A stretch of DNA of 64,000 nucleotides, from positions 1 through 64,000 of the forward strand of contig NZ_BBCJ01000019.1 of assembly GCF_001311985.1 (NCBI RefSeq), read 5' to 3'. Position 1 is the stretch's first letter. Each line of letters starts with the position of its first letter. Origin of the DNA: Geotalea toluenoxydans JCM 15764. Lineage in GTDB: Bacteria; Desulfobacterota; Desulfuromonadia; Geobacterales; Geobacteraceae. The position numbers and the translations under genes are program-made. The notes under the pieces are model-generated. The model was not told the DNA's origin. It saw only the letters and a list, made by a program, of their open reading frames with translations, and did no database searches. Below are positions 33,398 to 54,400 of this stretch, in pieces.

Positions 33398-34336
33398 CTA
33401 TGAGGCAGTGAGATAAGCCGTGGCAAGTGATTCGGGTGGGTCGACATCCAGTGCCCGATAAATACCGAGGATGAAGTCGAGCAGGATGGGGTCGATCTTG
33501 TGCTGCTCGTTCAACACCAGGCTGCGGGCCCTGGCTGGTGCGAAACCGGTGGCGTGGTGGGCCACCAGAGAACCCTCTTCCAGATATTTAGCCACCATGC
33601 TCCGGGAGATGAAGGTTATTCCTTGCCCCGCCACGACCTCGTCGATGATGAACGGAATGTCGTCGAAAAAGACTGTATTAGCAAAGTCGGTGCTGTTTTT
33701 CCCCAGCCCCAGCATGCTTTTGTCCAGAAATCGCCTGGCGCAGCATCCGGCCTTCTTGCAGTAAAGCCGTTCCCCGAGCAGCAATTCGATATCGACAGAG
33801 GGAGTGGACAGTCCCAAGTTTGGTGAGCTGACGAAGATCATCTCATCCTCTGGCAAGGAATATGCCTTGAATGCTCCCAGATTCAGGTCCTCACAGTATT
33901 CGATCAGCGCCAGGTCGAATATCCCCTCCTTAAGTCCCTGCAGAGCCGTTTCGGGCATCTCGAAGACGAATTTGAGGTCGCTGGTTTCGGAATGATTGGC
34001 CATGAAATCTTTGAGAATTCCCGGCAGATAGCTCGTGCCAAAGGGGAACGTGCAGCAAAAGCTGATCTTGCGACGTCCTTTCTGCGCCTGAAGCTCCTCC
34101 AGTATCTCCCGTTCTATGTTCAGCACCTGTTGAGCTTTTTCCAGCAGGATCAATCCGGCCGGCGTCGGTTTCAGGACCGGTCCCGACCGTTCCAGCAGCA
34201 GTTGGCCGTAGTGCTCCTCCAAAGCCTGAATCCTTCTGGATACAGCCGATTGGGTGACGCACAGGTTCAGGGCGGCTTTGGAAAAACTGCCCACCTTGGC
34301 CAGGACGAGAAGTGTTTTGAGGTAGGTAAAATCCAC
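33398..34336 (-). CDS. LysR-family transcriptional regulator
   Basis: About 312 aa. I place the start at the GTG giving VDFTYLKTLLVLAKVGSFSKAA, the canonical LysR beginning, because a TTG 33 bp upstream would overlap a palindromic operator. Winged helix with CVTQSAVSRRIQALEEHYG, then an effector domain with an unusual CKKAGCCARRFLDK cysteine cluster (three Cys). Divergent from the rhodanese gene cluster, with a matching dyad in between, so it probably controls that cluster and itself. The cysteines could sense a thiol-reactive ligand (inference). Confidence 0.88.
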   Translation of the reverse strand: MDFTYLKTLLVLAKVGSFSKAALNLCVTQSAVSRRIQALEEHYGQLLLERSGPVLKPTPAGLILLEKAQQVLNIEREILEELQAQKGRRKISFCCTFPFGTSYLPGILKDFMANHSETSDLKFVFEMPETALQGLKEGIFDLALIEYCEDLNLGAFKAYSLPEDEMIFVSSPNLGLSTPSVDIELLLGERLYCKKAGCCARRFLDKSMLGLGKNSTDFANTVFFDDIPFIIDEVVAGQGITFISRSMVAKYLEEGSLVAHHATGFAPARARSLVLNEQHKIDPILLDFILGIYRALDVDPPESLATAYLTAS

Positions 34337-34361
34337 GGTTTTTGCCTGTAGAATGCGGTGT

Positions 34362-34376
34362 ATGCGCAAAGCGCAT
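34362..34376. promoter_or_regulatory. Putative LysR operator, site 1
   Basis: ATGCGCAAAGCGCAT, a perfect dyad with ATGC-N7-GCAT and the T-N11-A pattern typical of LysR boxes. It lies 25 bp upstream of the proposed LysR start and about 145 bp upstream of the divergent rhodanese gene. Confidence 0.6.
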
Positions 34377-34521
34377 GGAGCCGATGAGAATGTTTCGTTT
34401 GAATATATTGCAGATATTCCGGTAGATTACAAGTCTAAAGTTGCTTGTTCACTGGACGAAGACAACGCCCGCCATTCTTTGGCGAAAAGATTCAAATAGT
34501 ACAAATAGAAATGGAGGTTGT

Positions 34522-35946
34522 ATGTGGGGGCGTATTAATAAAAAGAAGTTCGTTACTCTGACTGCCTTGCTTGGCATAGGGGGGGCGGCAATGCCATCGG
34601 CAGCAGTTGTCTCTGCGGAAACCCCTGCTGCACCGGCAAGGCCGGTCATGGGCAAGATCTGCATGAATTGCCACAAGCCCGAAGGGAATAACGTCATTCG
34701 AGGCTATCTGGATGGCGTCTCTTTCAAGGCGAAAATGCTTCAGGTGAAGTTGGACGACCGGGTCGAGATCTTCAATTTCGACAAGAACACCATTCAGGTG
34801 GTCAATGAGCAGCGCAAAACCGGCTCTGGGGAGTTGCTCCAGAACAACCTGATCAGAAAAGGACATGAGATCAGGGTGGAATTCAGTCAAACAAATGGCG
34901 CAAAGACTGCCGTTAAATTGACTGCCAAGCCACCGGTGGAACTGCCCGCGGAGATGCTCATTTCGACATCTGAGCTTGAGAAACTGGTCAGGCTCGGGCC
35001 GGAAAAGGGGGGCTATTTTCTCTATGATTCCCGACCTGCCCAGCGTTTCCAGGAGGGGGCAATACCCGGCGCCGTGAATCTGCCGTTCCCCGCCTTCGAC
35101 AAAATGGCGGAAAAACTGCTGCCTGCGGATAAAAAGGCCCTGCTCATCTTTTATTGCTCCGGTCCCGTTTGCAACATGAGCCCCGGCTCGGCGGCAAAGG
35201 CAAAAAAGCTGGGCTATGGCAACATCAAGGTTTACAAGGACGGGATGCCGGGGTGGACGGAGAAGCATTACGCCGTTCTGACTCCACAGTCGCTGAAGGA
35301 GGCCTGGTTGGACAAGGATATGAGCCACGTGCTGCTGGATGTGCGTTCAACCGGCACCAACAGGTTCATCAATGGGGCGATCAGCTTTCCGGCCGGCCAG
35401 GCGAAGCGCCTGGTAAAGGGGCTTGATCTGAAACTGAAGAAAGCGCCGCTCATCCTCTATGATGCCGGTAAGGACAGGGAGGCGGTAACCGTTGCCAGGG
35501 CGCTGATCAAGGCCGGTTACAGCAACGTGAAAGTGTTGACCGGCGGCTTCAAAGGCTGGGAGTCTGCGGGATTTCCCACTGAAACCGGAAAACGGTCAGC
35601 CAAGATCGTCTATATACCGAAGCTGAAGCCGGGCGAGGTGGCCCTGGACCTATTCAAGCAGTATGCGGCGGTTTTGCCTGACGGCTTTGCCATTGTCGAT
35701 GTCAGGCTTCCGGCGGAAGTTAGTGTCGGCAAACTGAAAAACGCCATTGCCATTCCTCTTATGGAGCTTCGTGATCGCCAGGCGGAACTGCCCAGGGACA
35801 AGACGATCATCCTCCATTGCAATACCGGGACTCAGGCGGAAATAGCCTATAACATGCTGAAAGACCTGGGGTACATGAACGTCAGATATTTCAACGGTAA
35901 GGTGACCTTCGAGAAAGGCGGGAGCTATTCCATTACCAAGGATTGA
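34522..35946 (+). CDS. Exported triple-rhodanese protein with one c-heme motif
   Basis: 474 aa. Signal peptide ending near VVSAE, a CMNCH motif at residues 47-51 (possible monoheme site), a beta-rich segment, then three rhodanese-like domains. Domain 1 has active-site-loop Cys 212 (YCSGPVCNMS, second Cys 217). Domain 2 lacks the Cys (LILYDAGKDRE). Domain 3 has Cys 433 (HCNTGTQA). Ribosome site GGAGGTTGT before ATG is identical to that of the next gene. Rhodaneses carry persulfide or perselenide on the loop Cys; coupling to a heme in the periplasm suggests redox sulfur/selenium handling (inference). Confidence 0.85.
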   Translation: MWGRINKKKFVTLTALLGIGGAAMPSAAVVSAETPAAPARPVMGKICMNCHKPEGNNVIRGYLDGVSFKAKMLQVKLDDRVEIFNFDKNTIQVVNEQRKTGSGELLQNNLIRKGHEIRVEFSQTNGAKTAVKLTAKPPVELPAEMLISTSELEKLVRLGPEKGGYFLYDSRPAQRFQEGAIPGAVNLPFPAFDKMAEKLLPADKKALLIFYCSGPVCNMSPGSAAKAKKLGYGNIKVYKDGMPGWTEKHYAVLTPQSLKEAWLDKDMSHVLLDVRSTGTNRFINGAISFPAGQAKRLVKGLDLKLKKAPLILYDAGKDREAVTVARALIKAGYSNVKVLTGGFKGWESAGFPTETGKRSAKIVYIPKLKPGEVALDLFKQYAAVLPDGFAIVDVRLPAEVSVGKLKNAIAIPLMELRDRQAELPRDKTIILHCNTGTQAEIAYNMLKDLGYMNVRYFNGKVTFEKGGSYSITKD

Positions 35947-36168: not shown

Positions 36169-37543
36169 ATGTCGGAAAAGGTGATGAACAGGAGCAGATT
36201 GATACTGGTTTCGCTGTTGGGCGTTTTTGCAATAGCAGCACTTACCATCTGGGGCTGCGGGACGAGCGGGTATGAAAATCCGTCCACCGATGCGGTGACG
36301 ACGAAAACCGCTACCGCCCTGATTCAGGCTTCAGATCTGAAGCAGTGGTCAGAAGCAGGGCTGGTCAACAAGACCGGCGGTTATGACCGGGTGGTGGTTC
36401 TGGACGTAACCAGCAATCCTGCGGCAACATCAGCGGACAATATGACAAACACCTACTACACCGTTGGTCACATTCCCGGCGCCCAGCTCATCGCCGGCGC
36501 CAATGCCGCCAACAGTTTTCAGGAAACCCGGCCCGAGGGACCACTGGATGCCACCGGCAGCATGGTCTTCGGCGGTGCCGCCATGGATAGCCTGATCCAG
36601 AACTACGGCATTGACGGGAATACGACTATCGTCTTGACCACCGGCGGCACTGCTCCCCTCAATCTGACCAGGCATATGCCACCTTCCGCTACTGGGGATT
36701 CCCCAAAAACCGCATCAAGGTCCTGCAGGGGGGCAACGCGGCGTGGACTGCCGCAGGTTTCGCTCTGACCTCTGCCGTGCCGGGCATCAAGAAATCCTCA
36801 TACGGAGTTGCCCAGAATGGCACCACCAACGTCAATACGGATATGCGCGTCTCCCTCCGGGAGATGATCGCCCACGTCAAGGGGATCGTTGGCGGCAATG
36901 CCGACAAGGTCTACATCCTCGATACCGTGCGCCCCGCTACGCAAATATCCGCCACGACAGACCTGCTGGCTACGGGTTATACCCCTTTTGACGGAGCGGT
37001 AAAAGGCTCCTATCGCTTTCCGCTGGCAGGGGTGGTGACCGGGGTGACCTTCAAGACTGCGACGAGATACGTGCTGCCATCAGTGCGGCAGTAGGAAGCG
37101 ATAATGTTACGACCATCGGCGACGCCAATCGCAGCGCGGCAAAAACGATCATAACCATGTGCCGCGCCGGCAACAACGCTTCCCAGGCCTATTTCGCCCT
37201 GGATGGCATCGCCTACTACAATTCCGATGTGGACATCAAATGGTATGACGGCTCTTTGGGGCAGTGGAACCTGATGGCCTCTTCCGACCACACCGCAGTC
37301 AACGGGGCCAATGCCGGCGGCAAGCTGAAGGTGGGCTCCATCTGGGATACCACCAGCCTCATGGACAACCTCACCTGGAACGTGGACCGGGCCTTCACCA
37401 TTGTCGACTATAGCGCACGGGTCCTGGGTGTGGAGCCGAGCTTTGCCGATGGTGACCAGCTCGAAGCGGCCGACCGGGCATATCGCAGCACCGTTACCGG
37501 TACATCCGGCGGTGGTGGCTCGGCGGGCGGCGGCGGATGCTGA
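36169..37543 (+). CDS. Rhodanese-family lipoprotein, ExtH-like (frameshifted)
   Basis: 458 aa after repair at about 36672 (G) and 37060 (C). Lipoprotein signal with lipobox Cys 30 (LTIWGC). Two rhodanese-like domains: the first has TTGGTAP in place of an active-site loop Cys, the second keeps CRAGNNAS. The C-terminus is a Gly-rich tail ending in Cys (GGGGSAGGGGC). Followed by a porin and a multiheme cytochrome, as in the extHIJKL conduit of G. sulfurreducens, so I read it as an ExtH equivalent at the outer membrane (inference). GGAGGTTGT ribosome site. Confidence 0.82.
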
Positions 37544-37609: not shown

Positions 37610-38814
37610 ATGATAAAGATTACCAAGGCAGGGAAAATATCGACAGTGGCTGCCGGATTGCTTCTGGTTGCCGGCACCGCCTTTGCCGGGCCGCGGATGA
37701 CTTTCGGCCCCAACGAGGAAGGCGCTCTTCAGATCGATTACAAGGGGCAATTCCAGATGACGGTCCGGGACACCGGATCGGGTGAGAACAACGACGATAC
37801 CACCACCAACTTCAACTTCCGCCGAAACCGGCTGGCACTGATGGGCAAATACGGCGACATGCTCAGCCTCTATGTCCAGACCGAATTCACCGAGGACCAG
37901 AACATAACCACCCTCGGTGTCGCCAATGCCAATCAGGGAACCGAATTCCAGCTCCTTGACGCGGTGATGCGCTTCAAACTCCATGACAGTTTCCGGCTGA
38001 ATGCCGGTAAATTCAAGTACAACCTTTCCCGTGAGAACCTGGAAGCTTGCGAAATGCCACTGACCCTCGACCGGTCGCTCTTTATTCGTACCGCCTATAC
38101 CACCACCCGCGACACCGGTGTAGCCGTGTGGGGAAACCTGTTCGACGACATTTTCCAGTACCGCATCGATGCCATGGAAGGGCGTAAGGCCGTGTCCGGC
38201 GAGACCTCGCCCAGTTCCAACTTCCGCTACTCCTTCCGCGGCCATGTATCCCTGCTCGATCCCGAGAATGATTACGGTTACAAGGGTACCTATCTTGGGA
38301 AAAAGAAGGTCCTGACCGTCGGCGGCGCCTATCAGTTCGAACCGGAGATCGCCTATGGCGATACGGTAGCCAGGACCGACAAGAAGGATTACCAGGCCTG
38401 GACTGTTGACGGCTTCTTCGAGTATCCCCTCGAAGGACTCGGCACCGTCACCGCATCCGCTGCCTATGAAGATGTGGATCTGGATGACGCCTATAAAGGC
38501 GCCAGCCCCGACGCTGGGGTCATTGGTATCAATGGGCAGAAGAACGTTGGTACGCCAAGGCCGGTTACATGCTCCCCAACCTGCCGCTGCAGTTCTTCGG
38601 CCGTTATGAGAAGTGGCGGTTCGCATCGCTCAACAACATTTTCGACCAGAAAGTGGACTGGTACGGTGGCGGCGCCAATTACTACTTCCGTGGCCAAAAC
38701 CTGAAGCTGACCATGGAACTATCCCGCACCGACTTTAACAACGAAGGGACCGTTAATGGACTGACGAGCAAAGACTTCACCAGCTTCGTCACCCAGCTGC
38801 AGCTGATATTCTGA
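37610..38814 (+). CDS. Outer-membrane porin, ExtI-like (frameshifted)
   Basis: 401 aa with a signal peptide (ISTVAAGLLLVAGTAFAG) and alternating beta-strand sequence throughout (GALQIDYKGQFQMTVRD, LALMGKYGDMLSLYVQTEF, YFRGQNLKLTMELSRTDF), ending in the aromatic LQLIF typical of outer-membrane barrels. One G restored near 38547 joins the halves. Ribosome site AAAAGGAG. ExtI-type porins form part of an electron conduit, and ExtI of G. sulfurreducens has been linked to selenite and tellurite reduction (from memory); assignment here rests on gene order and fold. Confidence 0.82.
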
Positions 38815-39260: not shown

Positions 39261-39578
39261 ATGAAAAGAATGATTACGAAACTGGCCACCATCTTCGCCT
39301 TGGCCGCCTTTGCGACGGCCGCCTTTGCTGCCGGATCCGTTACCGGAAAGGTAACCGCCATCGACGGAGAAAAGGTGTCGGTGACGGTAGAAAAAGAACT
39401 CCCCGCCTGGGTGAAGAAGGGTGACTCTGTTCAGGCCATGGGTGGGTCCCCCACCGTTGTCGACGTCAAGGGAAACGTGATCGTACTGAAATTCGGCAAG
39501 GCCAAAGCGGCAAAGATCAAGGCCGACAGCAAAATGACCATCAGCGAATCGGCCGGCGACGAGCTCCAGGGATGCTGA
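39261..39578 (+). CDS. Small periplasmic OB-like protein with Gly-Cys end, ExtJ-position
   Basis: 105 aa: signal peptide (LATIFALAAFATAAFA), then SVTGKVTAIDGEKVSVTVEK, LPAWVKKGDSVQAMGGSPTVVDVKGNVIVLKFGKAKAAKIK, ending GDELQGC. Small beta-barrel (OB/SH3-like) pattern. The last residue is Cys. A close paralog lies at 43343, heading the next cytochrome cluster. Strong AAAGGAG site. Position corresponds to ExtJ between porin and cytochrome. Confidence 0.75.
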   Translation: MKRMITKLATIFALAAFATAAFAAGSVTGKVTAIDGEKVSVTVEKELPAWVKKGDSVQAMGGSPTVVDVKGNVIVLKFGKAKAAKIKADSKMTISESAGDELQGC

Positions 39579-39631: not shown

Positions 39632-40987
39632 ATGATGAACCAATGCTCAATTGGCGCCCTGGTCCTTCTTGCGGCGGCTGCCCTTCTGGCCGGCCCGGCA
39701 TCTGCCGGCGGCAAGGCGGGAATCGGCTTGCAGGAGACTATTGTCGCAAAATCGGGCAAGGCGAAAACCCTTGCCCAACTGGCAAAGATGTACGACTCCA
39801 GCTCTTGCATCGAGTGCCATCAGGATAAACACGACGAAGCACAGAAGTCCATACATTCGCGCTCCATTTACGGAACGGGAAGAACGGCGTCGACCATAAT
39901 GTCCGCCATCGAGAATGGCCTTATGGAACAGCCCTATTCGGGAGTCAAGAGCCCGAAGGACGTCAAGGTGGAGCACCTGATGGGGTGTGCCAAGTGTCAC
40001 CTGCCGCAGCTGTCCGATGCCGAAGACTCGGTGGCCCAGGAGCTAGTCAGCACCCTCTACAGCTGGAAGGATGCCCTGAAGAAGAAGGACAAGGCAGCGG
40101 CCAAGCGCGAGGAAGACAAACTCAAGAGTGTCAACATCAACTGTCTGGTCTGCCACAATCGCAATGCCATCACCCACAAGTGGCAGGACGGCTATCCCAA
40201 GGCGGGAGTGGTCTACGGGTCGAAGGACGGTGATCATCCTTCGGACAAGTTTCCCAAGATGGCAATCAGCCCCATCATGAGCGAATCGATCCAGTGCGGC
40301 CAATGCCATGGTATGGGTCCGAATATGGAGCTCGATGAGCCGACCCAGTGCTGTACTTCCTACGGCAGTTATCTCTGGTCCTACAAATCGGAAGGTGGTC
40401 AGGAGAGCTGCCAGGAATGCCACATGAAGAAGAGCAAGCTCGGCCACAACATCCAGTCCTACCGTGATCCGGCCATGGCCAAGGCAGCGGTGGATTTCAA
40501 GATGGAATCCTACGGCTATCACTGGCGCGACGGCGCTGAAATTAAGCCGAAGGCGGTGGTCAAGGTGGAAATGACCAACCGAGCCGGACACTCCATCCCC
40601 GATGGCTGACCGACCCCCAACCGACTGGTTCTGTCGGTCATAGCAAAAACGAAGGATGGCAAGGAAGTTTTCAACCAGGAAAAAATCTATATGCCGGTTC
40701 CGCAGCAATTGGGCCGGGGTGACCGGATGGGGCGCGGCCCCTACGAGAAGAGCGGCATCATCGAGGATACCGGCTTACCGCCGGGGAAAACGGTCCATGA
40801 AAGATTCGACATCATGTTCCCCCTTGAGGAGATGGAGGTTGACGGCAAATTTGTCAACAAACCGACCGCCTACGACCTGGATGTGACCGTTCAGCTCTGG
40901 TATCTCCCCTTCGGCACAAAGAAAACCGATCCGTTCCTCTGGCACGAAGCGAGCAAGACAATCAGCATCAGCAAGAGCGGCAAGTAG
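39632..40987 (+). CDS. Five-heme c-type cytochrome with in-frame TGA (probable selenoprotein, ExtKL-like)
   Basis: 451 residues if TGA at 40607-40609 is read as residue 326. Signal peptide, then CIECH (about 59), CAKCH, CLVCH, CGQCH and CQECH. The frame is identical before and after the TGA: RAGHSIPDG-(TGA)-PTPNRLVLSVIAKTKDG, and a further 125 residues of protein-like sequence continue to KTISISKSGK. Breaks checked elsewhere in the window are base losses that shift frame, so this in-frame stop is of a different kind. A stem-loop begins at the TGA. ATGATG start with GGGGAG. Equivalent in position to ExtKL of the ext conduits (inference). Confidence 0.8.
40607..40640 (+). promoter_or_regulatory. 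SECIS-like stem-loop at the in-frame TGA
   Basis: TGACCGAC pairs perfectly with GTCGGTCA (40633-40640), so the TGA forms the base of the stem as in bacterial SECIS elements. An inner stem AACC/GGTT closes a GACT loop beginning with G. The distance from TGA to the apical loop is 13 nt, a little below the usual range, so folding and SelB binding need checking. Confidence 0.55.
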
Positions 40988-41017: not shown

Positions 41018-41048
41018 GGCCGGCGAACCGTTCGCCGGCCTTTTTTTT
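41018..41048 (+). terminator. Strong intrinsic terminator after the selenocytochrome gene
   Basis: GGCCGGCGAA / TTCGCCGGCC, ten perfect pairs with a 3-nt loop and eight T. It closes the rhodanese-porin-cytochrome cluster. Confidence 0.92.
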
Positions 41049-41214: not shown

Positions 41215-42849
41215 TTATGATGCCAGATGAAATTGGCCGATGAGATGCTGAAGCTCGCTGGAGAGGTTGGAGAGTTGGCGGGCCGCAGCCGCAGTTTCCT
41301 GGGCGCCCCGCGCCGTACTCTGAACAACGTCGGTGATCTGCTGGATGTTGCCGCTGATTTCGGCTGTGGTGGCGGTTTGCTGCTCGGCGGCAGTAGCCAT
41401 CTGATTGACCTGCATGGTAACGCTCCCTACCTGCTCCAGAATTTTTTCAAGCGCCTTACCAGACTCTGCCGCCTCGGCAGTGCCACGCTCCACCTCATTT
41501 ACCTCCTGTTCCATGAATGTGACGGCGCTCTTCGTCTCCTGCTGAATCGCCTTGATCATGGCGCCGATTTCCTTGGTCGCCTTGGTGGTCCGTTCCGCCA
41601 GAGCCCGAACCTCGTCCGCCACTACTGCAAAGCCCCGTCCTTGTTCGCCGGCCCGGGCTGCCTCAATGGCGGCGTTCAGCGCCAGGAGGTTCGTCTGATC
41701 GGCAATATCCTCAATAGTACCGATAATCTGGCCGATCTGGTCGCTACGGGTGCCAAGGCCCCCCACCGTTTTTGCTGTCTCACGAACCCGCTCTGCAATT
41801 CGGGCCATCTCACCGACAGTATGCCTGATTACTTCCGAACCTTTACCTGCTGTATCGCATGCACGGCGAGCCTCTTCGGCTGCGGTTGAGCAGTTAACGG
41901 CAATTTCCGTCGAGGTAGCGGCCATCTCCTCGCTGGCGGTGGCAACGGTGCCGGTTTGGGCGGCAACTTCTTCGGCCCCTGTTGCCATCTGCTCGGCATT
42001 GGCGGTGAGTTGCCCTGCGGCCGCCGCTACCTGGGTGGCGTTATCGGCTACGCCGGCAATGAGGCGGTTGAGACGATCGGCCATGGTGTTCACTGCGTCG
42101 GCCAGTTGCCCGGTTTCATCCTTCTGGTTCATATGGAGGTGATGGGCCAGATCTCCCTGGGCGATGGCCCGGGCGAACTCGACCACTTTCAGGAGAGGAG
42201 CGGTAATCTGCCGCGCCATGAACAGGCCGAAAATAACGGCGATGACCATGCCGGCAATGGCGAAGACGGCCATCTGTATGGTTGCACTGCGGGCCGTGGC
42301 TGCATTCAGTTCGTTACGTTGCTCTGCCACCGCAATCTTCATGTCGAAAACCTTTTTGATCGCTTCATCGATCTTGCGCTCATAGGCAAGCCCTTGGGTC
42401 CGCATGATATCCAGGGCGGTTTCACGGTCGCCTGCAAGGGTTGCCGTGACAATATCGTCGCGTACCGGGCCATACTCTTTGATGAGGTCTCGAAGGATGG
42501 CGAACTGCTTTTTCCCTTCGCTGGTTTCCAGGGTCTTTTCAAATTCCGTCAACTGTTCGTCGATTTCCCCGTAAAGCTTTGCGATGGTTTTGGCGTTGGC
42601 CTGCGCCCGCTGGGGGCTGTCGTCGAGGATCATGCCCCGGACGTTTACCCGTGCCTTTTGGAAGGCAATTCCCACCAGGCCGAAGGTCCCGAGGGGCTCG
42701 GTGTTGTAAGTGAACATCTGTTCGGCCTCATGTGCCAGTGTATTTATCTTCGACGTTCCGATGAAGCCGACGATCCCGGCTATAAAGGCTACCAGAACGA
42801 AGCCTGATACCAGTTTTCTGCTGAGACGAGCATTCCGAAGAAAATTCAT
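41215..42849 (-). CDS. Methyl-accepting chemotaxis protein
   Basis: 544 aa, uninterrupted. TM1 ([18 protein letters not shown]), a four-helix-bundle ligand domain (about 35-190), TM2 ([19 protein letters not shown]), HAMP ([20 protein letters not shown]) and a signalling domain with the hairpin tip [36 protein letters not shown]. No c-heme motif in the sensor. Inserted on the opposite strand between two cytochrome clusters, so it may steer cells toward the acceptor those clusters use. Confidence 0.92.
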
Positions 42850-43342
42850 AATGAGGCTCCTTGCTGCAGTGTTAGTAGAGAGTGCGGACAGCCAAAGATT
42901 GAGCCGCCATACCGCCTTTTTACATATTTATCGGCTAATACGGCCTTAAGTTTAAGATTGTTCATAAAAAATGTAGTTGGTGAGTGATATTTATTGCAAT
43001 TGCCTGTTCGGGGTCCTTGACCTGCGTGTGTCAATGATTTGACCTTGCATTGATGATGTGCTGAACCTTATAAAGAAACATGAATTAAAGCGGGTGTTTG
43101 TTGCTGTGGGTAATGTGTCGTTGGGTGGCACTGGGATTGCAAGTACATAGCTCTTTAGATGCTTTGGTAGCTGCACAGTATGCCTGTCAGCGGGACAAGG
43201 ACTATACTTGGGCAGAACCTGAAGTGCTTGCGGCAGAACCAGCCGGTCGACTTTTGCAGGGGAGTGGGCTGAGCATACAACCTTAGTGATTCGGCTCCAC
43301 TCCAGGGCGGAGCAACATAAAACAACACAGGAGGAAAACAAA
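42850..43342. other. 493-bp intergenic region with divergent promoters
   Basis: No supported gene. It separates the chemoreceptor (minus) from the small Gly-Cys protein (plus). The left half is AT-rich around 42940-43000; the right half carries a sigma-54-like promoter (listed separately). Confidence 0.5.
43126..43141 (+). promoter_or_regulatory. Sigma-54 (RpoN) type promoter
   Basis: TGGCAC-TGGGA-TTGCA, a near-ideal -24/-12 match, about 200 bp upstream of the small periplasmic protein that heads the 12-heme/10-heme cytochrome cluster. Confidence 0.65.
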
Positions 43343-43656
43343 ATGAAAAAAATCATGATGTCCATCTCGGCGGCCCTCGTCGCTCTGTCCATGGCGGCGA
43401 TTGCGTTCGCCGCCGGCTCCTTTTCAGGCAAGGTCACAAAGGTTGACGGCGAAAAGATTACCGTCAAGGCCGACAATGTGCCCGCCTGGGTAAAGAAAGG
43501 TGACAACGTTCAGTCCATGGGCGGTTCTCCCAAGGTTATCAGTGTGAAAGGGGACGAGGTAGTTCTCAAGTTCGGCAAGCTAAGGCCGCCAAAATCAAGG
43601 TCGACTCCTCCCTGCGGGTTAGTCAGCCCGCAGGCGACGAGCTCCAGGGGTGCTAA
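43343..43656 (+). CDS. Small periplasmic OB-like protein with Gly-Cys end (paralog, frameshifted)
   Basis: 104 aa after restoring one G near 43580. Signal peptide, then FSGKVTKVDGEKITVKADNVPAWVKKGDNVQSMGGSPKVISVKGDEVVLKFGK and the ending PAGDELQGC with TAA. Closely similar to the protein at 39261 (WVKKGD.VQ.MGGSP, VVLKFGKAKAAKIK). Ribosome site ACAGGAGG. A strong terminator follows directly, so this paralog is probably made in excess over downstream genes. Confidence 0.75.
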
Positions 43657-43663
43657 CACGAAT

Positions 43664-43698
43664 GCCTCCCCGCTCTAAGCAGGGAGGCTTTTTTTTTC
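43664..43698 (+). terminator. Intrinsic terminator after the small Gly-Cys protein
   Basis: GCCTCCC / GGGAGGC with a 12-nt loop and nine T. Confidence 0.88.
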
Positions 43699-43776
43699 GC
43701 ATGCCGGGCAAGCAACTGGATATTTCTGCATGGTTGAATTATAGTGACCCATCACCAAAGCGTCTATCCACAGGCC

Positions 43777-45630
43777 ATGTCAATCAAACCAAACAATACC
43801 GGCAAACTGGTTCCACTGATCTCCCTCATGCTGCTTCTTCTGCTTACCGGATGCGGCCGTGGGAGGTCAACCTGCGAATCGTGTCACCGGGGAATCGAAA
43901 AGACCTCCGCCAGCCACACATCCTGCATATCTTGCCACGGTGGGGATGACAAGGCACGAAACAAAAATATCAGCCACAACACCATGTTCGGGCCGAAGAA
44001 TCCCGCAGACCCGGAACATTGGGAGAGAACCTGCGGCGCCTGCCATGCTTCGCAGCTGGGGCGCGTGCGGTCGAACCTCATGTACACCAACACGGGGATG
44101 ATCAAGAACATCCAGCTGACCTGGGAGGGGGAGAACGGGCGCCTCTACGGCGGCCGGGGCGACAAGGTCTTTGATGCCGCCGGTCGAGAGCGCCTCTTGC
44201 ACGGGGTCACCGGCCTGGACCACATCTCGGGGGAACTGTACCGGAAATTCTGCTCCCAGTGCCACGTGGGGATCGAGACCAGCGGAGTTTTCGGCGCCGG
44301 CCACGGGTCGGGCTGCACCGCCTGTCACTTCCCATACAACGACCAGGCCACCTATGAGGGGAATGATCCGACCGTCAAGGGGAAGAGCCCCTATTCGGAC
44401 ACCCATGCCATGGAAAAACTCCCCGGCAACCAGGTCTGTTTTCGCTGCCACAACCGCAGCGGTCGCATTGCCCTTTCCTATCAAGGGTTGTACGACGGCA
44501 ACAATGGACTGGTGCCGACCAGGAAGGGACTGCCGGGGCCGGTGCAGGCGAGTGGCGGGCGCAACCTTGTTCATATTGCTCCCGATGTCCACTTCGCCGC
44601 CGGCATGGACTGCATCGACTGTCATACCTCCCGCGACGTCATGGGAGATGGCTATGCCTATGAAAACATGTACCAGCAGACCGAAATAAGCTGCGAAGAC
44701 TGCCATGGGGGGGCGAGCAGGCCACGCTGGCAGACGATCAGCCGGGAAAGCGATGCGGCCTTAAGGGAATCGAAAAGCTACCGGATGCAGATGCGCCATG
44801 GCATGCACATGGTGCTGACCGCCAAGGGTCGTCCCTACTCCAATGTTTTTTATCAGGACGGGACGGTCTACGTCCTTGGGAAGAGGAGCGGCAAATTGTT
44901 CAAGAGCAAGGTGATAACCGGTACTGCGGAACATGCTGTAATCGGCCACCAGCGCATGGAATGCCATGCCTGCCATTCCCGGACCGTGGTTCAGTGCTAT
45001 GGTTGCCATACCACCTACGATAAGGGGGAGATGGGCACCGATTTCATCCGCCAGGAAGAAACTCCGGGTCGGTTCACTGAAAAGGAAGACTACCGCATGC
45101 TCTATCCCTTTCCCCTTGCCATCAACCAGCGGGGGAAGATCTCCCCGGTTACGCCTGGTTGTCAGACCTTCATCACGGTGGTCGAGGAAACAAAGCTGAA
45201 GTCGAAGGATGAGTATGTTGCCCGCTATAAGGGCAAAAACCAATTGCGCTTTGCCCCGTTCTATTCCCACAATACGGGTAAAAAGGCCATCGGCTGTACG
45301 GAATGCCACGGTAATCCGGCCTTCCTCGGCTTCGGTCAGCATGTTGTTGAGGGCAGCAGCATCGACGGCACCCTGATCTGTGAGAAATCCGCAGATAAGC
45401 CATTGGACGGTTTCCTGGCACTGCGACAGGGAAAGGTAAAGGCGTACTCTGCAATCACCCGGGAGCGTTCCAGGCCCCTGAACGGCCGGGAGGTGAAGAG
45501 AACCCTTGCCGTCAACCTTTGCCTTGTATGCCATGGTAGCGCCAAGGACCCCATTTATCGAAAGGAGTTGGATTATCGTGCGCTGGATGATGCCCTTCAT
45601 CGCCGCTTGCTTTCTGATAGCAGCCGCTAG
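43777..45630 (+). CDS. Twelve-heme cytochrome c lipoprotein
   Basis: 617 aa, uninterrupted. Lipobox LLLLTGC near residue 26, then twelve CXXCH motifs: CESCH, CISCH, CGACH, CSQCH, CTACH, CFRCH, CIDCH, CEDCH, CHACH, CYGCH, CTECH, CLVCH. Start at MSIKPNNTG, with a GTG 33 bp upstream as alternative. First gene of a run that continues with a 10-heme cytochrome, Rieske protein and cytochrome b, so it is probably the electron-accepting periplasmic part of a quinol oxidoreductase like the Cbc complexes of Geobacter (inference). Confidence 0.9.
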   Translation: MSIKPNNTGKLVPLISLMLLLLLTGCGRGRSTCESCHRGIEKTSASHTSCISCHGGDDKARNKNISHNTMFGPKNPADPEHWERTCGACHASQLGRVRSNLMYTNTGMIKNIQLTWEGENGRLYGGRGDKVFDAAGRERLLHGVTGLDHISGELYRKFCSQCHVGIETSGVFGAGHGSGCTACHFPYNDQATYEGNDPTVKGKSPYSDTHAMEKLPGNQVCFRCHNRSGRIALSYQGLYDGNNGLVPTRKGLPGPVQASGGRNLVHIAPDVHFAAGMDCIDCHTSRDVMGDGYAYENMYQQTEISCEDCHGGASRPRWQTISRESDAALRESKSYRMQMRHGMHMVLTAKGRPYSNVFYQDGTVYVLGKRSGKLFKSKVITGTAEHAVIGHQRMECHACHSRTVVQCYGCHTTYDKGEMGTDFIRQEETPGRFTEKEDYRMLYPFPLAINQRGKISPVTPGCQTFITVVEETKLKSKDEYVARYKGKNQLRFAPFYSHNTGKKAIGCTECHGNPAFLGFGQHVVEGSSIDGTLICEKSADKPLDGFLALRQGKVKAYSAITRERSRPLNGREVKRTLAVNLCLVCHGSAKDPIYRKELDYRALDDALHRRLLSDSSR

Positions 45631-46826
45631 TACGGTGATGGCGGAAGAAAATTGCCGGGTCTGCCACCGGGTCGCTACCAGCGGTATCCATGCCGCCCTT
45701 GCCTGCAAGGACTGTCATGGCAATGATGCGACAACGACTCCCGATCCGGCCTCTGCTGCACATAAGGCCAAAGGCTGCACCAGTTGCCACAACGGTTACG
45801 GCCGGCTGTTCGACCACGCCATGGCTACCCGGACCAGGGAAAAGCAGTTTGTAGAGAAGACTTTCGCCAAGGCCGACCCGCATTTTTTTGACAAGAACTG
45901 TCAATCCTGTCACCTGCGAGGGTGCACCGACTGTCATGGCGGCAGCGGTCATTCCCTGGCCCAGGCACGTGACAGGAATTGCTTTGCCTGCCATCGGGGA
46001 TACTTTGTCGGCAGCGAATATTACGGCATGGCGCCCAGAGAGGACAGTCTCCGCTATCAGCGGGGGGAGACAGCTATGGGGAGACTTTCCTCAAGATGCT
46101 GCCCGATGTCCACGCCGAGGCGGGCATTGCCTGCAGCAGCTGCCATACCATGCAGAGCCTGATCGCGGGGACCAGGACTGCAAAAGTCTGTCGCGACTGC
46201 CATAAACCCAGTGACAAGGTGCTGGAACACCGGATAAAAGTACACCTGGAGCGGATGGAGTGTTACGCCTGCCACTCGGCATGGGGGGCGCAGGAATACG
46301 GCACCTTCTATCTGCGCTTTACCGGTGGCCAGTCCCAGCAGCATTACCGACTGAAGACGGTCGATGGCAATTATGTGAAGAGCGCCTACCTGAAAAAACA
46401 GGATGCGCCGCCACTGGGGGTCAACGCCAGGGGCATGGTCAGCCCGATACGCCCCCAGTTCATCGCCTACTTCAGCGATATCCGCAACGACATGGTGGTG
46501 GGAGAGGAAAACCGGTTACTGACGGCGTCATGGAAGGCGTTTTTTCCCCATACGGTGCGTCGGGGAACTGTCATGTGCGATGGCTGCCATGACGCACCGC
46601 GGCGCTTTATCATGGAAGGAAAAGAGGACCGTATCTATCGGCTGCAGGATGATGGCATGAAAATTCCATCCTTCTGGGACAGGACCGGTCAAAAGGTCAT
46701 GAACGGGGATTTTTCAGCCCCGCCCGCTACCGGGCCATGACGGAGAAAAGCGCCGCTTATCAAAGGGCATACGTGGAAAAATGGAAAAAACTGACCGATC
46801 GCGTCGAAAATTCATCATTGCCCTGA
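45578..46826 (+). CDS. Ten-heme cytochrome c (frameshifted)
   Basis: About 416 aa. GTG start at 45578 with AAGGAG spaced 10, overlapping the end of the previous gene by 53 bp. Signal peptide (MMPFIAACFLIAAASTVMA) and ten CXXCH: CRVCH, CKDCH, CTSCH, CQSCH, CTDCH, CFACH, CSSCH, CRDCH, CYACH, CDGCH. Breaks near 46075 and 46711 are single-base losses; the end overlaps the Rieske gene by 46 bp. Partner of the 12-heme lipoprotein in the same complex (inference). Confidence 0.87.
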
Positions 46827-47179: not shown

Positions 47180-47799
47180 GTGGTCAAGGAATTTCTCAAG
47201 CATCTCTTCCCACGGGTTGTGCTGAAGGACAACCTTCGCCTGACCTACACCTTCTGTCTCGGCGGCATGGCTTTCACCGCCTTCTCCTTACTCATTGCCT
47301 CCGGGATGCTGCTTCTTTTTTACTACCAGCCATCCCCGGACAAGGCCTTCGGTTCCATTCTCTTTCTCGAATCATCGGTCTATGGCGGCCGCTATTTGCG
47401 TAGTCTGCACCGTCTTGCTTCCCATTTCTTTCTCGTGCTCATCTTTCTCCATACCCTGCGTGTCATTCTCACCGGCGCTATCAAAAACCACGGCACCTGA
47501 ACTGGATCGTTGGCTGCATTCTGCTCTGTCTGTCCGTTTTTGCAGCTTACACCGGCTATCTTCTGCCCATGGACCAGCTTGCCCTCTGGGCAACCCAGAC
47601 CGGCATGGAACTTCTTAATACGGCATATTTCGGCGGAATGATCAGGGATATCCTCGTTCCTGATGGGGTCGGCCAGCCCCTGTCGCTGCTTCGCTTCTAT
47701 GTGCTGCATATTGTGCTGGCGCCGCTGGCCATTCTGCTTCTCTCGTTTCTCCATTTTTACCGTATCAGGAAAAACAAGGGAATCCTGCCTTACCTGTAA
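47180..47799 (+). CDS. Cytochrome b (b6-like N-terminal part, frameshifted)
   Basis: 206 aa after restoring one A near 47491 (IKKPRHLNWIVGC). Four membrane helices. Helix B has His-X13-His (LHRLASHFFLVLIFLH) and helix D His-X14-His (LHIVLAPLAILLLSFLH), the b6 pattern for two b hemes. GTG start one base after the Rieske stop. It is the quinol-oxidising membrane core of the complex. Confidence 0.9.
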
Positions 47800-47821
47800 T
47801 CCGTCACTATTGGGGGAAGTC

Positions 47822-49024
47822 ATGAAGGAATACGTGAAGAGTTCGCCGCAGTTCTTTCGCCTCATTAAAATATCGACCGCCGTTGTCGTCGCGGTGATTT
47901 CGCTCCTGGCAATCCTTATCACTGCCCCCCTTCAGGAACCAGCTGACTTGGCCAAAGTGCCCAACCCGGTCAAGTCGGCCTGGTTTCTCCTCTGGATCCA
48001 GGAACTGGTCAGCTATTCCAAATACCTGATCTATGCAGTTGCCCTGACAGCCGTCTTTTTCTTCATCCTTCCCTGGTTTCCTTCCGGTAGCACGGCGGAA
48101 AAAGCCCGTTGGTTTGCCACGGGGCAGACGGCGGTGAACGTCATAACTATCATCGTCTTCACAGCCATAACCGCTCTCACCATTATCGCCATGTTCTTCA
48201 GAGGTGCCAACTGGTCGCTGGTCGTCTTTTCATAATCCTTGCCCTGATGCTGCTCTTTCCTGCCATGGTATCGGCGGGCCGGAAAAGTGCCTGTCTGACC
48301 TGTCATCCACCCCACCATGCCGGCCGCGGCAGCTGCACCGGCTGTCATCGAGGAAACGATCGTAGCGAGAGGAAAAATATTGCCCATCACGGCTGATCGG
48401 CGGCCGCTATGCCCACTTCACCATCCAGGGCAGTAAGGTTGTAGAAGAGGGCAAAAAACTGATCGGTGCTGCAGACTGCCGGCGCTGCCACACGACGGGA
48501 GATCGCGGTAATCGGCTGGCTGCCGATCTGGACAAGCTTTTTCCGGACGCATCCCCCGAGGATGTCTTCAAGGCGATCAAAAACCCGGTGCTTTACATGC
48601 CTGATTTCCATTTTGTCGATACCGAAATCGTCTCCCTGGTCAATGCCATTGCCAGCGGCGCCAGGCAGGAAACGGATCGCCAGAGAGAAACGGTGCAGGT
48701 GGTTCATTTTATACCTGATGGCTTGGCCAGGGAAAACAGCTTCGTCAGGCTGTGCGGCTCCTGTCATAAGCTGTTAAGCCACCGCTACGGCGGCTTGGCA
48801 ATGGCACTATGGGGCCTAGCCTCTCGGGGCTCTTTAGCGAGTTTTATCCCGCCACCTTTGCCGGCAAGACCAGGTGGCGGGAGGAGAGCCTGAAAAGGTG
48901 GCTGAAAAACCCCCGCAAGGTGCGACCAAATGCTTTGATGCCACCTGTTGCAGTCACGGCAGCCGAGTTGGAACAACTGACAGACGCCATGGTTGTCCCC
49001 CACCAGGAAAAGAATTCACGCTAA
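47822..49024 (+). CDS. Subunit IV-like membrane protein fused or coupled to a tetraheme cytochrome c (frameshifted)
   Basis: If one T is restored at 48232 the frame runs from a subunit-IV-like part (PNPVKSAWFLLWIQELVSYSKY, three helices to about residue 140) into a helix LALMLLFPAMVSAG and a cytochrome c part with CLTCH, CTGCH, CRRCH and CGSCH, about 401 aa in all. Two further one-base losses lie near 48391 and 48798. Alternatively two genes are present, the second starting about 48247. A QcrC-like fusion is known in other bc complexes; I favour fusion because the second part has no good start signal. Confidence 0.7.
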
Positions 49025-50686: not shown

Positions 50687-51442
50687 ATGGAAAAGGACAT
50701 TTTGATCGTCATGCAGGAAGATCTTGAGCGTGCCCTGAAAAAACCTGCGGAAGAGCGCCGTTGGGCAATGCTCCTTGACCTGCGCAAGTGTGTTGGCTGT
50801 CATGCCTGCACCATTGCCTGCGTTTCGGAAAACAAGCTGCCGCCAAAGCTTTATTACAGGCCGGTTTTTGAATACGAGCAGGGGAAATACCCGAAGGTAA
50901 ACCGCAGCTATCTGCCCAAACCGTGCATGCAGTGCGACAACCCGCCTTGCGTTGCCGCTTGTCCGGTGAAAGGCCCGGATGGCGCCACCTGGAAGGAAAC
51001 CAAGGGGATCGGCAACGGCATCGTTCCGGTCAATTACGCCAAATGCATCGGCTGCGGCAAGTGTGTTCCCGCCTGCCCCTATCAGGCCAGAACCATGGAC
51101 GACGGTTCCTATCACACGGCAGGCACTCCCCAGTTGCAGGTCTACGAAACCCTTCCCTCCTTCGAGTACGGCAAAAAATGGCCGCGCAAGGGAAAGGACC
51201 AGCCCATCGGCAATGCCCGTAAGTGTCACTTCTGTATCCATCGCCTGGCCAATGGCATGCTGCCCCAGTGCATCACCACTTGCATCGGCAGGGTCGGCTA
51301 CTTCGGCGATGAGAGTGATCCAAAAAGCCTGATCGCCCAGGTGAAGAAGGGGAACAAGATTCAGATCCTGAAGAAAAAGCTCGGCACGGCGCCTCGTGTT
51401 TACTATATCGCCAATGAGAAGCTGGAGGTAATCTATGGATAG
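50687..51442 (+). CDS. Four-cluster iron-sulfur subunit of molybdoenzyme
   Basis: 251 aa of the DmsB/TtrB/NrfC type. Cysteine groups: CVGCHACTIAC, CMQCDNPPCVAAC, CIGCGKCVPAC and CHFC ... CITTC, enough for four [4Fe-4S] clusters. No signal of its own, so probably carried out by the Tat signal of the catalytic partner that follows. Its stop lies two bases before that partner's ATG. Confidence 0.9.
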   Translation: MEKDILIVMQEDLERALKKPAEERRWAMLLDLRKCVGCHACTIACVSENKLPPKLYYRPVFEYEQGKYPKVNRSYLPKPCMQCDNPPCVAACPVKGPDGATWKETKGIGNGIVPVNYAKCIGCGKCVPACPYQARTMDDGSYHTAGTPQLQVYETLPSFEYGKKWPRKGKDQPIGNARKCHFCIHRLANGMLPQCITTCIGRVGYFGDESDPKSLIAQVKKGNKIQILKKKLGTAPRVYYIANEKLEVIYG

Positions 51443-51444
51443 GC

Positions 51445-54400
51445 ATGAAGATAAAGAACTTCTTGAAAATAAAAGGCATGAGCCGCAGAAAATTTCTCAA
51501 GACCAGTGCCATGGTCGGTTGTGGCGCGCTGGTGGCTGCCCAGCTGGACTTTGCAAGGGGCTGATAGCCCGTGTCGAAGCAGGCGAAATTACCGAAGCCG
51601 AGGCGTACGAGCTGATGAAGGCGGAAAACACTCTCTACACGGTTTGTCTCAATTGCAACACCGGTTGCGGCATCAAGGTGAAGATTCTTGAGGGGGTGGC
51701 GGTCAAGGTGGATGGCAACCCGTACAACCCTTTTACTCTCCATCCGCACCTGGAGATGAAAGAAGACATCGCCAGGGGAGCCAAGATTGATGGCGCCATC
51801 TGTCCTAAAGGGCAGTCAGGCCACCAGGGGGCATACGATCCCTACCGAATCCGCCAGGTCTTGAAGAGGGCCGGCAGGAGGGGAGAGGGAAAATGGCAGT
51901 CGGTTCCCTTCGATCAGGCGGTCAGCGAGATCGTCAATGGCGGTCTCCTCTTCAGCCATGTTCCCGGAGAAGAAAACCGCCACGTGGACGGTTTGAAATC
52001 CCTCTATGTCCTCACCGACCACAAGGTCTATGAGGAGATGGGGAGCGATGTGGTCAAGATCCGCAAGAAGAAGATGACGGTTGCCGAATTCAAGACCAAG
52101 CATGCCGCCAATCTGGATAAGCTCATTGACCCCGACCACCCGGATTTCGGCCCGAAGAACAACCAGTTCGTCTACTGGTGGGGACGGAAGAAGGGAGGCA
52201 GGAGCGATTTCGCCAAGCGCTTTACCGAGCAATTCGGCACAGTCAACACCCACGGCCATACCACCGTCTGCCAGGGCTCCCTCTACTTTGCCTGCAAGGC
52301 CATGAGCGAGCAGTACGTGGGGGACACTTTCAAGGACGGCCAGAAATTCTACTGGCAGCCCGACCAGGAGAACTCCGAGTACATCCTTTTTGTCGGCTCC
52401 AACCTCTTCGACGGCAATTACGGACCTCCCAACCGGACACCCCGCATGACCCAGCGTATGGTGGAGGGAAAACTGAAGACCACGGCCGTCGACCCGCGCT
52501 TCACCAAGCTGGCTGCCAAGGCGAACCGCTGGCTGCCGATCCAGCCGGGCACCGATGCCGCCCTTGCCATGGGCATGACCCGCTGGATTCTGGAAAACAA
52601 GCGTTTCGACGCCAAATATCTGGCCAATGCCAACAAAGCAGCTGCCGCAGCCGACAAGGAGACCACCTGGAGCAACGGCGCTTGGCTGGTCAAGCTTGAC
52701 AAGGATGGAAAACCGGGGGTTTTCCTCCGGGCCTCCGAAATCGGCCTGAAGGCCAAAGAGGTACGCAAGGACAAGGATGGCAAGGACTTCGATTTCGAGT
52801 ACCTGGTGGCCATGAAGGACGGCAAACCGGTTGCCTTCGATCCCAATGACGAGAAAGAGGCCGTGGAAGGGGAGCTGTTTGTTGCCGCCGAACTTACGGA
52901 CAAGGCCGGCAAGCCGGTCAAGGTGAAGAGCGGCCTGCAGGTAATGCTGGAAACTGCCAAGGAGAAAACCCTGGCCGAATACGCAAGATTTGCGGCCTTG
53001 AAGTCAAGGTCATCGAGGAGGTGGCGAGGGAACTGACCAGCTATGGCAAAAAGGCTGCCGTCGATGTTCACCGCGGCCCGGCCCAGCATACCAACGGCTT
53101 CTATAACATTGCTTCTCTGATGAACCTGAACCTGCTTCTGGGCAACTTCGACTGGAAGGGGGGCATGATCGTCGCTTCCACCTATAATACCGACGGCACC
53201 AAGAGCGAAAAGCAGCCTTTCAACCTGAAGAAGATCAGCCCGAAAGGGGCAAAACCCTTCGGACTGTCCATTATCCGTCACGATGCCAAATACGAGGAGT
53301 CGACCCTTTTCGAGACGGCCAAATATCCGGCCAAGCGCAACTGGTGGCCGCTCTCTTCCGACGTTTATGAGGAAATCCTCCCTTCCATGGCCGATGCCTA
53401 TCCCTATCCGGCAAAGGTAGTCTTCTCCTATATGGGTGCGCCATCCTACTCGCTGCCTGCAGGCCACACCATGATCGAGGCGCTGGTCAACACCGACCGC
53501 ATTCCCCTCTACTTCGCCAGCGATATAACCATCGGTACTACAACCATGTATGCCGACTATATCTTCCCCGACCTTCACTACCTGGAGCGTTGGGAGATGC
53601 AGGGCTCGCACCCCAACATGCCGGTCAAGGTGCAGCCGATCCGCCAGCCGGTCATTCCTTCACCCAATGAGGTGGTCAAGGTTTTCGGCGAGGAGCAGCC
53701 CATATCCTATGAGACTCTGTGGCTGGCCCTGGCCGAGAAACTGGGACTGAAGGGATTCGGTCCCAACGGCTTCGGTGAAGGGAAGCCCCTTACCCGTCCC
53801 GATGATTTCTACATCCGAATGGTCGCCAACGTGGCTGGAGACAGCAAGGAGCCGGTGCCTGATGCCGGTGCGGCGGAGATCGAGACCTTCCTCAAGGCCC
53901 GAAGCACCTGCCGAAGAATGTTTTCGATGTGGATCGCTGGCAGAAGATCGCCGGACCCGCCTTTGCCAAGGTGGTGTATGTGCTGAACCGTGGCGGCCGC
54001 TTTGATAGCCAGGCCAATACCTACAAGGGAGACCATGTGGCCAACAAGTACGGCAAGCAGATCAACCTCTACCAGGAAAAAACCTACAAGTGCAAGGATG
54101 CTTTCACCGGCAAGCATTACTACGGCATGGCCCGTTACATGCCGGTGGCAGACACTCTTGACCGGCTGCCGGTGGAGCAGTCGAAGGGGTACGACCTGCA
54201 CCTGATTACCCAGCGGGACATTCGCATGACCAAGTCCCGCACCATCACCAATCAGTACCTGACCGACTCCATCCCGGAAAACAGCATCATCATCCACACC
54301 AAGGACGCTAAAAGGCTGGGCCTGAAGGCCGGGCAGAAGGTGAAGGTGGTTTCGGCCACCAATCCGGCAGGGGAGTGGGATCTGAAGAACGGGACGAAAG

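Follow-up and report, generated by a model that had tools for sequence, protein, structure and literature searches.

The gene extKL of Geotalea toluenoxydans JCM 15764 very probably encodes a selenoprotein, a pentaheme c-type cytochrome in which UGA codon 326 would be decoded as selenocysteine (Sec) via a downstream bacterial SECIS hairpin (bSECIS), and which would work as a periplasmic, heme-wired redox centre. The gene lies in the window, namely the whole stretch of 64,000 nucleotides analysed here (contig NZ_BBCJ01000019.1, positions 1 to 64,000), and four observations of this analysis carry the assignment: relatives without the TGA have one frame across the site, TGA and Cys exchange at it, the RNA that follows is constrained, and the gene stands in an ext-type operon. 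Since the ExtKL family, its Sec site and a structure were known before, the novelty is low, and the observation, though well founded, is not a new one; what is added are the RNA and substitution evidence, which address both gaps left in 2007, i.e. no SECIS and no non-Sec homologues.

The extKL gene and its product

39632..40987, + strand: extKL, pentaheme c-type cytochrome and predicted selenoprotein of 451 residues, Sec at 326 (NF040886; PDB MccSep relatives)
40607..40609, + strand: TGA taken as selenocysteine, residue 326, within GHSIPDG-U-PTPNR (TGA/Cys exchange in homologues)
41020..41048, + strand: intrinsic-terminator-like inverted repeat, then a T run (read from the sequence alone)

The sequence-only reading that drew attention to this gene had described five CXXCH motifs, an in-frame TGA and 125 further residues, and all of these are seen in the frame: the motifs begin at residues 59, 119, 171, 222 and 260, and the 125 residues of a conserved tail lie between TGA 326 and the TAG stop codon (40985-40987). 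The N-terminus is signal-like, as judged by eye; as for the strong terminator that had been claimed past the gene, its inverted repeat and T run are there, and its assignment was again made by eye. Open frames of more than 100 codons on each side of a TGA are not rare in themselves, with 21 such places in the window, the extKL site included. The continuation of protein-like sequence across the TGA was confirmed by the profile NF040886, "(seleno)protein ExtKL", which matched on both sides, with 604.3 bits for the joined frame against a cut-off of 250 (residues 27-446 on profile positions 16-422 of 423); by halves, it gave 437 bits 5' of the TGA and 134 bits 3' of it, the latter below the cut-off when taken alone.

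The five c-type heme sites are within the first ~270 residues, and the C-terminal domain is beta-rich in an AlphaFold model (27 sequences; mean pLDDT 76.3); pLDDT falls below 50 at residues 220-224, 228-233 and 236-256 (Cys240 is in the third of these segments), so that no Sec-Cys240 or Sec-heme distance was drawn from the model. Foldseek against the PDB returned 16 matches at E ≤ 0.001 for this model; the 50 matches listed were mostly beta-domain look-alikes and large helicases, with no MccSep entry among them, unlike the sequence search, by which the MccSep entries were located.

In the alignment of 27 sequences, from which L077 and L078 were omitted because their matched stretch overran a stop, there is no variation at G319, H320, P323, D324, G325 or position 326 (one symbol standing for both Sec and Cys), and Sec326 comes after the GHxIPDG motif, six residues past His320. 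The same alignment has one invariant non-heme cysteine, Cys240, which is Cys in all 165 rows covering the position. A Sec326-Cys240 pairing was considered and downgraded: Cys240 is retained in the Ile and Val forms described below, and it also aligns with a cysteine of PDB 5ze8, whose Sec column is Ala. Because rows devoid of Sec keep this residue, Cys240 is not tied to Sec and is probably no obligate partner of it.

The codon at position 326 in homologues

The alignment of homologues suggested with the sequence-only reading places TGA or Cys at the Sec column of nearly all 167 distinct homologous 45-mers: 153 have TGA, 12 Cys, one Ile and one Val, after removal of four matches to other cytochromes (L027, L028, L031, L032), four stretches that fell short of residue 326 and 32 repeats. 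Relatives thus carry the TGA at the same place as extKL, and the homologues extend past it instead of ending there. When 58 genomes (own included) were searched, 19 matches from 18 genomes exceeded the NF040886 cut-off, each with exactly one TGA, and single-contig genomes are among those whose ExtKL holds it; the family is patchy, as 40 of the 58 genomes had no match over the cut-off. Among 395 genomes of the phylum there were at least 50 such matches, at least 43 with one TGA, at least 6 with no stop and at least 1 with TAA; these counts are lower bounds, four candidates per genome having been scored, and the second piece of one gene (genome G167) was left uncounted.

Cys occupies the Sec column in, among others, L073, L075, L136, L080, L139, L140 and one of the two tandem L137 copies; Ile and Val are found in the other L137 copy and in L138, both with PDS for PDG. 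Cys, Ile and Val homologues span the site as one frame, and L140 has a TAA elsewhere in its frame. Selenoproteins are classically recognised by just such an exchange of TGA and Cys in frames otherwise uninterrupted.

Several loci have unusual arrangements. The two adjoining ExtKL copies of L137 (genome G083) are both devoid of TGA; L138/L126 (genome G255) likewise has neighbouring copies without TGA, and in L138 the other copy is truncated before the Sec site; and genome G002 (C1:515966-522937) has two copies ~4.4 kb apart with one TGA each. ExtKL with TGA also seems to occur outside the phylum of the window, as the records L054, L057, L058, L059 and L067-L069 are labelled Nitrospiria, Nitrospirae/Nitrospirota and Terriglobia in their titles. 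Extra in-frame TGA codons in L158 (query position 217) and L171 (position 87) were considered as second Sec sites and rejected, not being conserved; they are perhaps sequence errors.

These data bear on whether the TGA is a true stop that separates two genes of one operon, extK (the pentaheme part) and extL. The question was left open in 2007 because no SECIS was found then (PMC1914089, section 8), and the Geobacter sulfurreducens counterparts GSU2937 and GSU2936 do carry separate numbers. Against this, the Cys, Ile and Val homologues cross the site as one frame (with the TAA of L140 lying elsewhere), the residues right after the TGA are highly conserved, the listed open reading frame start past it, ATG 40691, would lose 27 of those conserved-tail residues, and the PDB chain records continue through the site. 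Two separate genes are therefore very unlikely, and Sec at position 326 is the preferred reading.

Selenocysteine machinery and quality of the assembly

G000:C36:26997-27917 and G000:C30:50003-50788: pair of selD-type genes, of which one holds a TGA within its frame

As for the decoding machinery, whose absence would have spoken against Sec, its genes are present in the genome, although selA and selB are in pieces. The tRNA-Sec scored 77.4 bits (gathering score 47), and selD 392.2 bits, over its cut-off and with an internal TGA, next to a second selD-type gene of 331.7 bits; selA was split between two neighbouring frames that both exceed the cut-off, at 316.8 and 285.4 bits, and selB was found as three frames, none over its cut-off, the best piece having 194.1 bits versus 242.25. 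In relatives, selB was over the cut-off in four of five; in the control genomes, loose searches matched selB, selD and tRNA-Sec in 14 of 14, and matches over the cut-off were obtained in 2, 2 and 5 of them, respectively.

In the relative G003, selB is in one frame, and the selB studied here lacks a single base at two internal positions; for these reasons its frame breaks are read as base loss. That other breaks in the window are base losses had been proposed from the sequence, and the comparison agrees with it: over 18,302 aligned columns, there are 32 single-base gaps in the window versus 15 in G003, which is why the frame breaks are taken as assembly errors. Window positions 30000-55000 show many one-base gaps when set against G003. 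The broken frames of extH, extI and the extN/extO-type gene there, and those of selA and selB elsewhere in the genome, are probably assembly errors.

In an assembly of this quality, the TGA itself might be a sequencing error or a pseudogene lesion, given the many single-base differences nearby and the fragmented extH, extI, selA and selB. The neighbouring breaks are frame shifts, whereas extKL has an in-frame codon, and the TGA recurs in all 19 matches over the cut-off among the 58 genomes; an error or lesion is hardly credible here, and the TGA of extKL is treated below as a genuine codon.

The hairpin downstream of the TGA

40620..40638, + strand: probable bSECIS hairpin, stem ACCGAC/GTCGGT, loop TGGTTCT, 16 nt past the UGA (published bSECIS criteria)
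40607..40640, + strand: alternative fold, AACC/GGTT inner stem within an outer stem of 8 bp, loop 13 nt past the UGA (sequence-only reading)

Two mutually exclusive folds can be drawn after the TGA. In the one first proposed, the outer stem pairs TGACCGAC (40607-40614) with GTCGGTCA (40633-40640), and the inner stem pairs AACC (40619-40622) with GGTT (40627-40630). This pairing does exist in the window and is the lowest-energy fold of its 34 nt (-14.9 kcal/mol). All eight pairs of the outer stem are kept in only 5 of 153 distinct TGA forms, and its inner 6 bp in 22 of 153. Covariation cannot separate both folds in the 21 close forms, because the ACCGAC/GTCGGT pairs are invariant there.

The second fold, the ACCGAC/GTCGGT hairpin, fits the bSECIS criteria as laid out in the relevant part of PMC13188914 (upper stem of 4-16 bp, loop of 3-9 nt with G in its first two bases, spacing of 16-37 nt, and minimum free energy of at most -7.5): it has a 6-bp stem, the loop UGGUUCU with G as the second base, a spacing of 16 and, when isolated, -8.1 kcal/mol. 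These criteria are loose, being passed by 140 of the 153 TGA forms and also by 7 of the 14 non-TGA forms, while in five recoded sets 56 to 82 of 153 pass.

Codon usage also points to constraint on the RNA. Among 22 homologues more than 75% identical, synonymous diversity in nine-codon windows has its minimum, 0.020, at starts 325-327, against a mean of 0.338 over 384 windows; the windows starting at 325 and 326 count the TGA as a conserved stop codon, and that starting at 327 excludes it and gives the same 0.020. For 21 homologues 33-60% identical (two Cys forms included), the minimum was 0.287 at start 329, with a mean of 0.549 over 344 windows. Folding relative to synonymous recoding, scanned at every second residue from 40 to 398, was lowest at residues 324-326. 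With a mean z of -1.07 (n 48, of which three are Cys forms) this is a modest effect, and values nearly as low, -0.80 to -0.89, were obtained at residues 246-252.

The minimum of synonymous diversity past the TGA is attributed to two hairpins. The first, ACCGAC-TGGTTCT-GTCGGT, is found in 19 of 19 TGA forms more than 75% identical, where resampling of codons would give 0.7 (and at most 4 in 2000 draws); over the whole first set, 21 of 81 TGA forms have it. The second, GTGGTC-CTGGAAGT-GACCGC, counted on its inner four pairs, is found in 55 of the 60 remaining TGA forms (9.4 expected, maximum 20 in 2000). Either hairpin was thus present in 76 of 81 TGA forms of the first set and in 0 of 8 non-TGA forms (0.4 and 0.1 expected). 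With the rule unchanged, a second set of newly fetched genomes (30 auto-loci and 40 chosen regions, from a longer list of matches) gave 70 of 72 TGA forms, where synonymous resampling led to expect 12.0 and did not exceed 24 in 1000 draws; among the non-TGA forms it gave 1 of 6, for an expectation of 0.16. When both sets are joined, 146 of 153 TGA forms carry a hairpin, as does 1 of the 14 non-TGA forms, counts that come from a rule framed after viewing the first set, are uncorrected for shared descent and include only 14 non-TGA forms. From observed versus resampled counts, the TGA forms are far above chance, and the non-TGA forms are at chance. Paired changes were also seen, with G-C replaced by A-T twice in one pair, and C-G replaced by T-A and by G-C once each in another. 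The Rfam scan of the 64-kb window at gathering scores gave no match.

On balance, these data favour a Sec-insertion hairpin set in clade-specific registers over nearly one protein motif, and absent in the Cys, Ile and Val forms. On this moderately probable reading, the Geobacter relatives would use ACCGAC-UGGUUCU-GUCGGU, with the loop 16 nt past the UGA, and most others would use GUGGUC-CUGGAAGU-GACCGC, with the loop about 21-23 nt past it. If true, the ExtKL family would offer a ready-made series in which to study SECIS shift and loss, in a protein that retains a second invariant cysteine independent of Sec.

The hairpin also weighs on which residue is inserted, since the sequence of extKL alone is compatible with readthrough of the TGA as Trp or Cys. 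The 14 replacements in homologues are 12 Cys, one Ile and one Val, with no Trp; moreover, a tRNA-Sec is present, a SECIS-type hairpin follows the TGA, and the PDB mutant of the solved relative is named U325A. Insertion of a residue other than Sec is thus highly improbable, and Sec326 is retained for what follows.

The operon and the neighbouring genes

33398..34369, - strand: multiheme-cytochrome-associated LysR regulator (NF041036, 363 bits, cut-off 210)
34441..35946, + strand: several rhodanese stretches in one protein (top models NF006444 and NF041203, every match under its curated cut-off)
36169..37543, + strand: extH, rhodanese-like, in three frame-shifted pieces (NF040901, 189.4, 56 and 123.5 bits, none reaching the cut-off of 200)
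37610..38814, + strand: extI, outer-membrane porin, in two frames (NF040900, one piece with 562.9 bits and the other with 121.7)
39261..39578, + strand: extJ (NF040942, 72.9 bits, cut-off 52.5)
43286..43678, + strand: second extJ-like gene (NF040942, 71.2 bits)
43744..45630, + strand: extM, multiheme cytochrome (NF040943, 1072.8 bits)
45506..46740, + strand: extN or extO, in two frames (NF040967/NF040968, near-equal scores)
47663..48235, + strand: extQ (NF040970, 188.3 bits)

The genes extH, extI, extJ, extM and others accompany extKL in a search that covered extH, extI, extJ, extKL, extM, extN, extO and extQ. The operon type is that which PMC5877670 and PMC6148476 describe as extHIJKLMNOPQS in G. 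sulfurreducens; the latter also places a LysR gene upstream of such clusters, on the opposite strand. Within extI, there is an apparent base loss near 38545. The two rhodanese-type genes that had been noticed upstream of the cytochrome, 34441-35946 and extH at 36169-37543, are recovered, with matches that are all below the cut-offs. The second extJ-like gene directly precedes extM, and a reverse-strand gene (41215-42849) stands between it and extKL. The product of this gene would resemble a methyl-accepting chemotaxis protein. Farther along the window (50687-53036) are iron-sulfur and molybdopterin reductase genes, similar to tetrathionate/arsenate reductase subunits, all below curated cut-offs.

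Proposed mechanism and function

Regarding its synthesis, SelB and tRNA-Sec would decode UGA 326 as Sec because the downstream bSECIS hairpin recruits SelB, and a single product of 451 residues would be exported, with its pentaheme part followed by the beta-rich end domain. On its periplasmic side, the outer-membrane conduit formed by ExtH and ExtI would be served by Sec326, which probably acts as a selenol(ate) redox centre wired to the hemes. His320 may serve a heme, and Sec326 would be close to that heme for this reason. The leading candidate substrate, as yet unproven, is selenite or an oxyanion like it; on selenite, the literature reports a phenotype for extI, and PMC5877670 mentions preliminary work on extKL. 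Electron-flow direction and a need of the conduit for Sec are likewise inferred features of the scheme.

The conduit role of the cluster is supported by the genetics of G. sulfurreducens, which address the cluster and not Sec. According to PMC6148476 (Table 1), the extHIJKL cluster alone sustains partial Fe(III) and Mn(IV) reduction: relative to wild type, the strain having only extHIJKL reached 52.1% with Fe(III) oxide and 23.8% with Fe(III) citrate, and the strain without all five clusters 0.1% with either. In that work, deletion of extHIJKL alone left 95.8% of wild type on Fe(III) oxide, 97.9% on Mn(IV) oxide and 66.3% on Fe(III) citrate. The Cys forms, for example L073, L136 and L139, and the Ile/Val copies L137 and L138 lend themselves to comparison in asking what such a selenol, linked to five hemes, does at the outer membrane of metal-reducing bacteria.

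Comparison with known systems

The placing of Sec at residue 326 of a periplasmic conduit cytochrome, first made from the raw sequence alone, is supported by the homologues, the Sec machinery, the RNA constraint and the solved relatives; the cue was borne out. The accompanying remark that no well-studied Sec-containing multiheme cytochrome was known does not hold, for the family was predicted in 2007 and MccSep is in the PDB. A selenoprotein was proposed in 2007 for GSU2937+2936 (PMC1914089), with no SECIS found and no non-selenocysteine homologues for this family (section 8); in 2018, passages of PMC6148476 and PMC5877670 named ExtKL and discussed it as a possible selenoprotein, and in 2026 a table in PMC13188914 listed the ExtKL family among prokaryotic selenoproteins, along with a GSU2204-type family and an octaheme tetrathionate-reductase-type family. 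The word SECIS is absent from PMC5877670, and a published account of the ExtKL-family SECIS was not found in our literature search, which is not proof of its absence.

As for the structures, PDB entries 9wt8, 9wta and 9wtb, "Multiheme cytochrome c selenoprotein (MccSep)", match the profile with ~642 bits, and the match runs through the Sec position, where the letter X at 325 is taken as Sec; 9wt9 and 9wtc, the MccSep U325A mutant, also match with ~642 bits and have Ala at 325. A literature search by name found no paper on MccSep.

A more distant likeness is that of PDB 5ze8, a cytochrome c552 that we take to be from Thermochromatium tepidum, with a weak profile match of 63.8 bits: one of its cysteines aligns with Cys240 and its PHxMPTG with GHxIPDG, and it differs by an alanine at the Sec position. 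PMC11976967 links the Thermochromatium tepidum cytochrome to the cable-bacteria pentaheme cytochromes of the ExtKL family.

Finally, the protein described here shares with ExtKL of G. sulfurreducens (GSU2937+GSU2936) the whole-length NF040886 match, the five hemes, the single TGA and the operon type; the differences are species-level ones in sequence and the presence, here, of the reverse-strand gene and the second extJ-like gene between extKL and extM.
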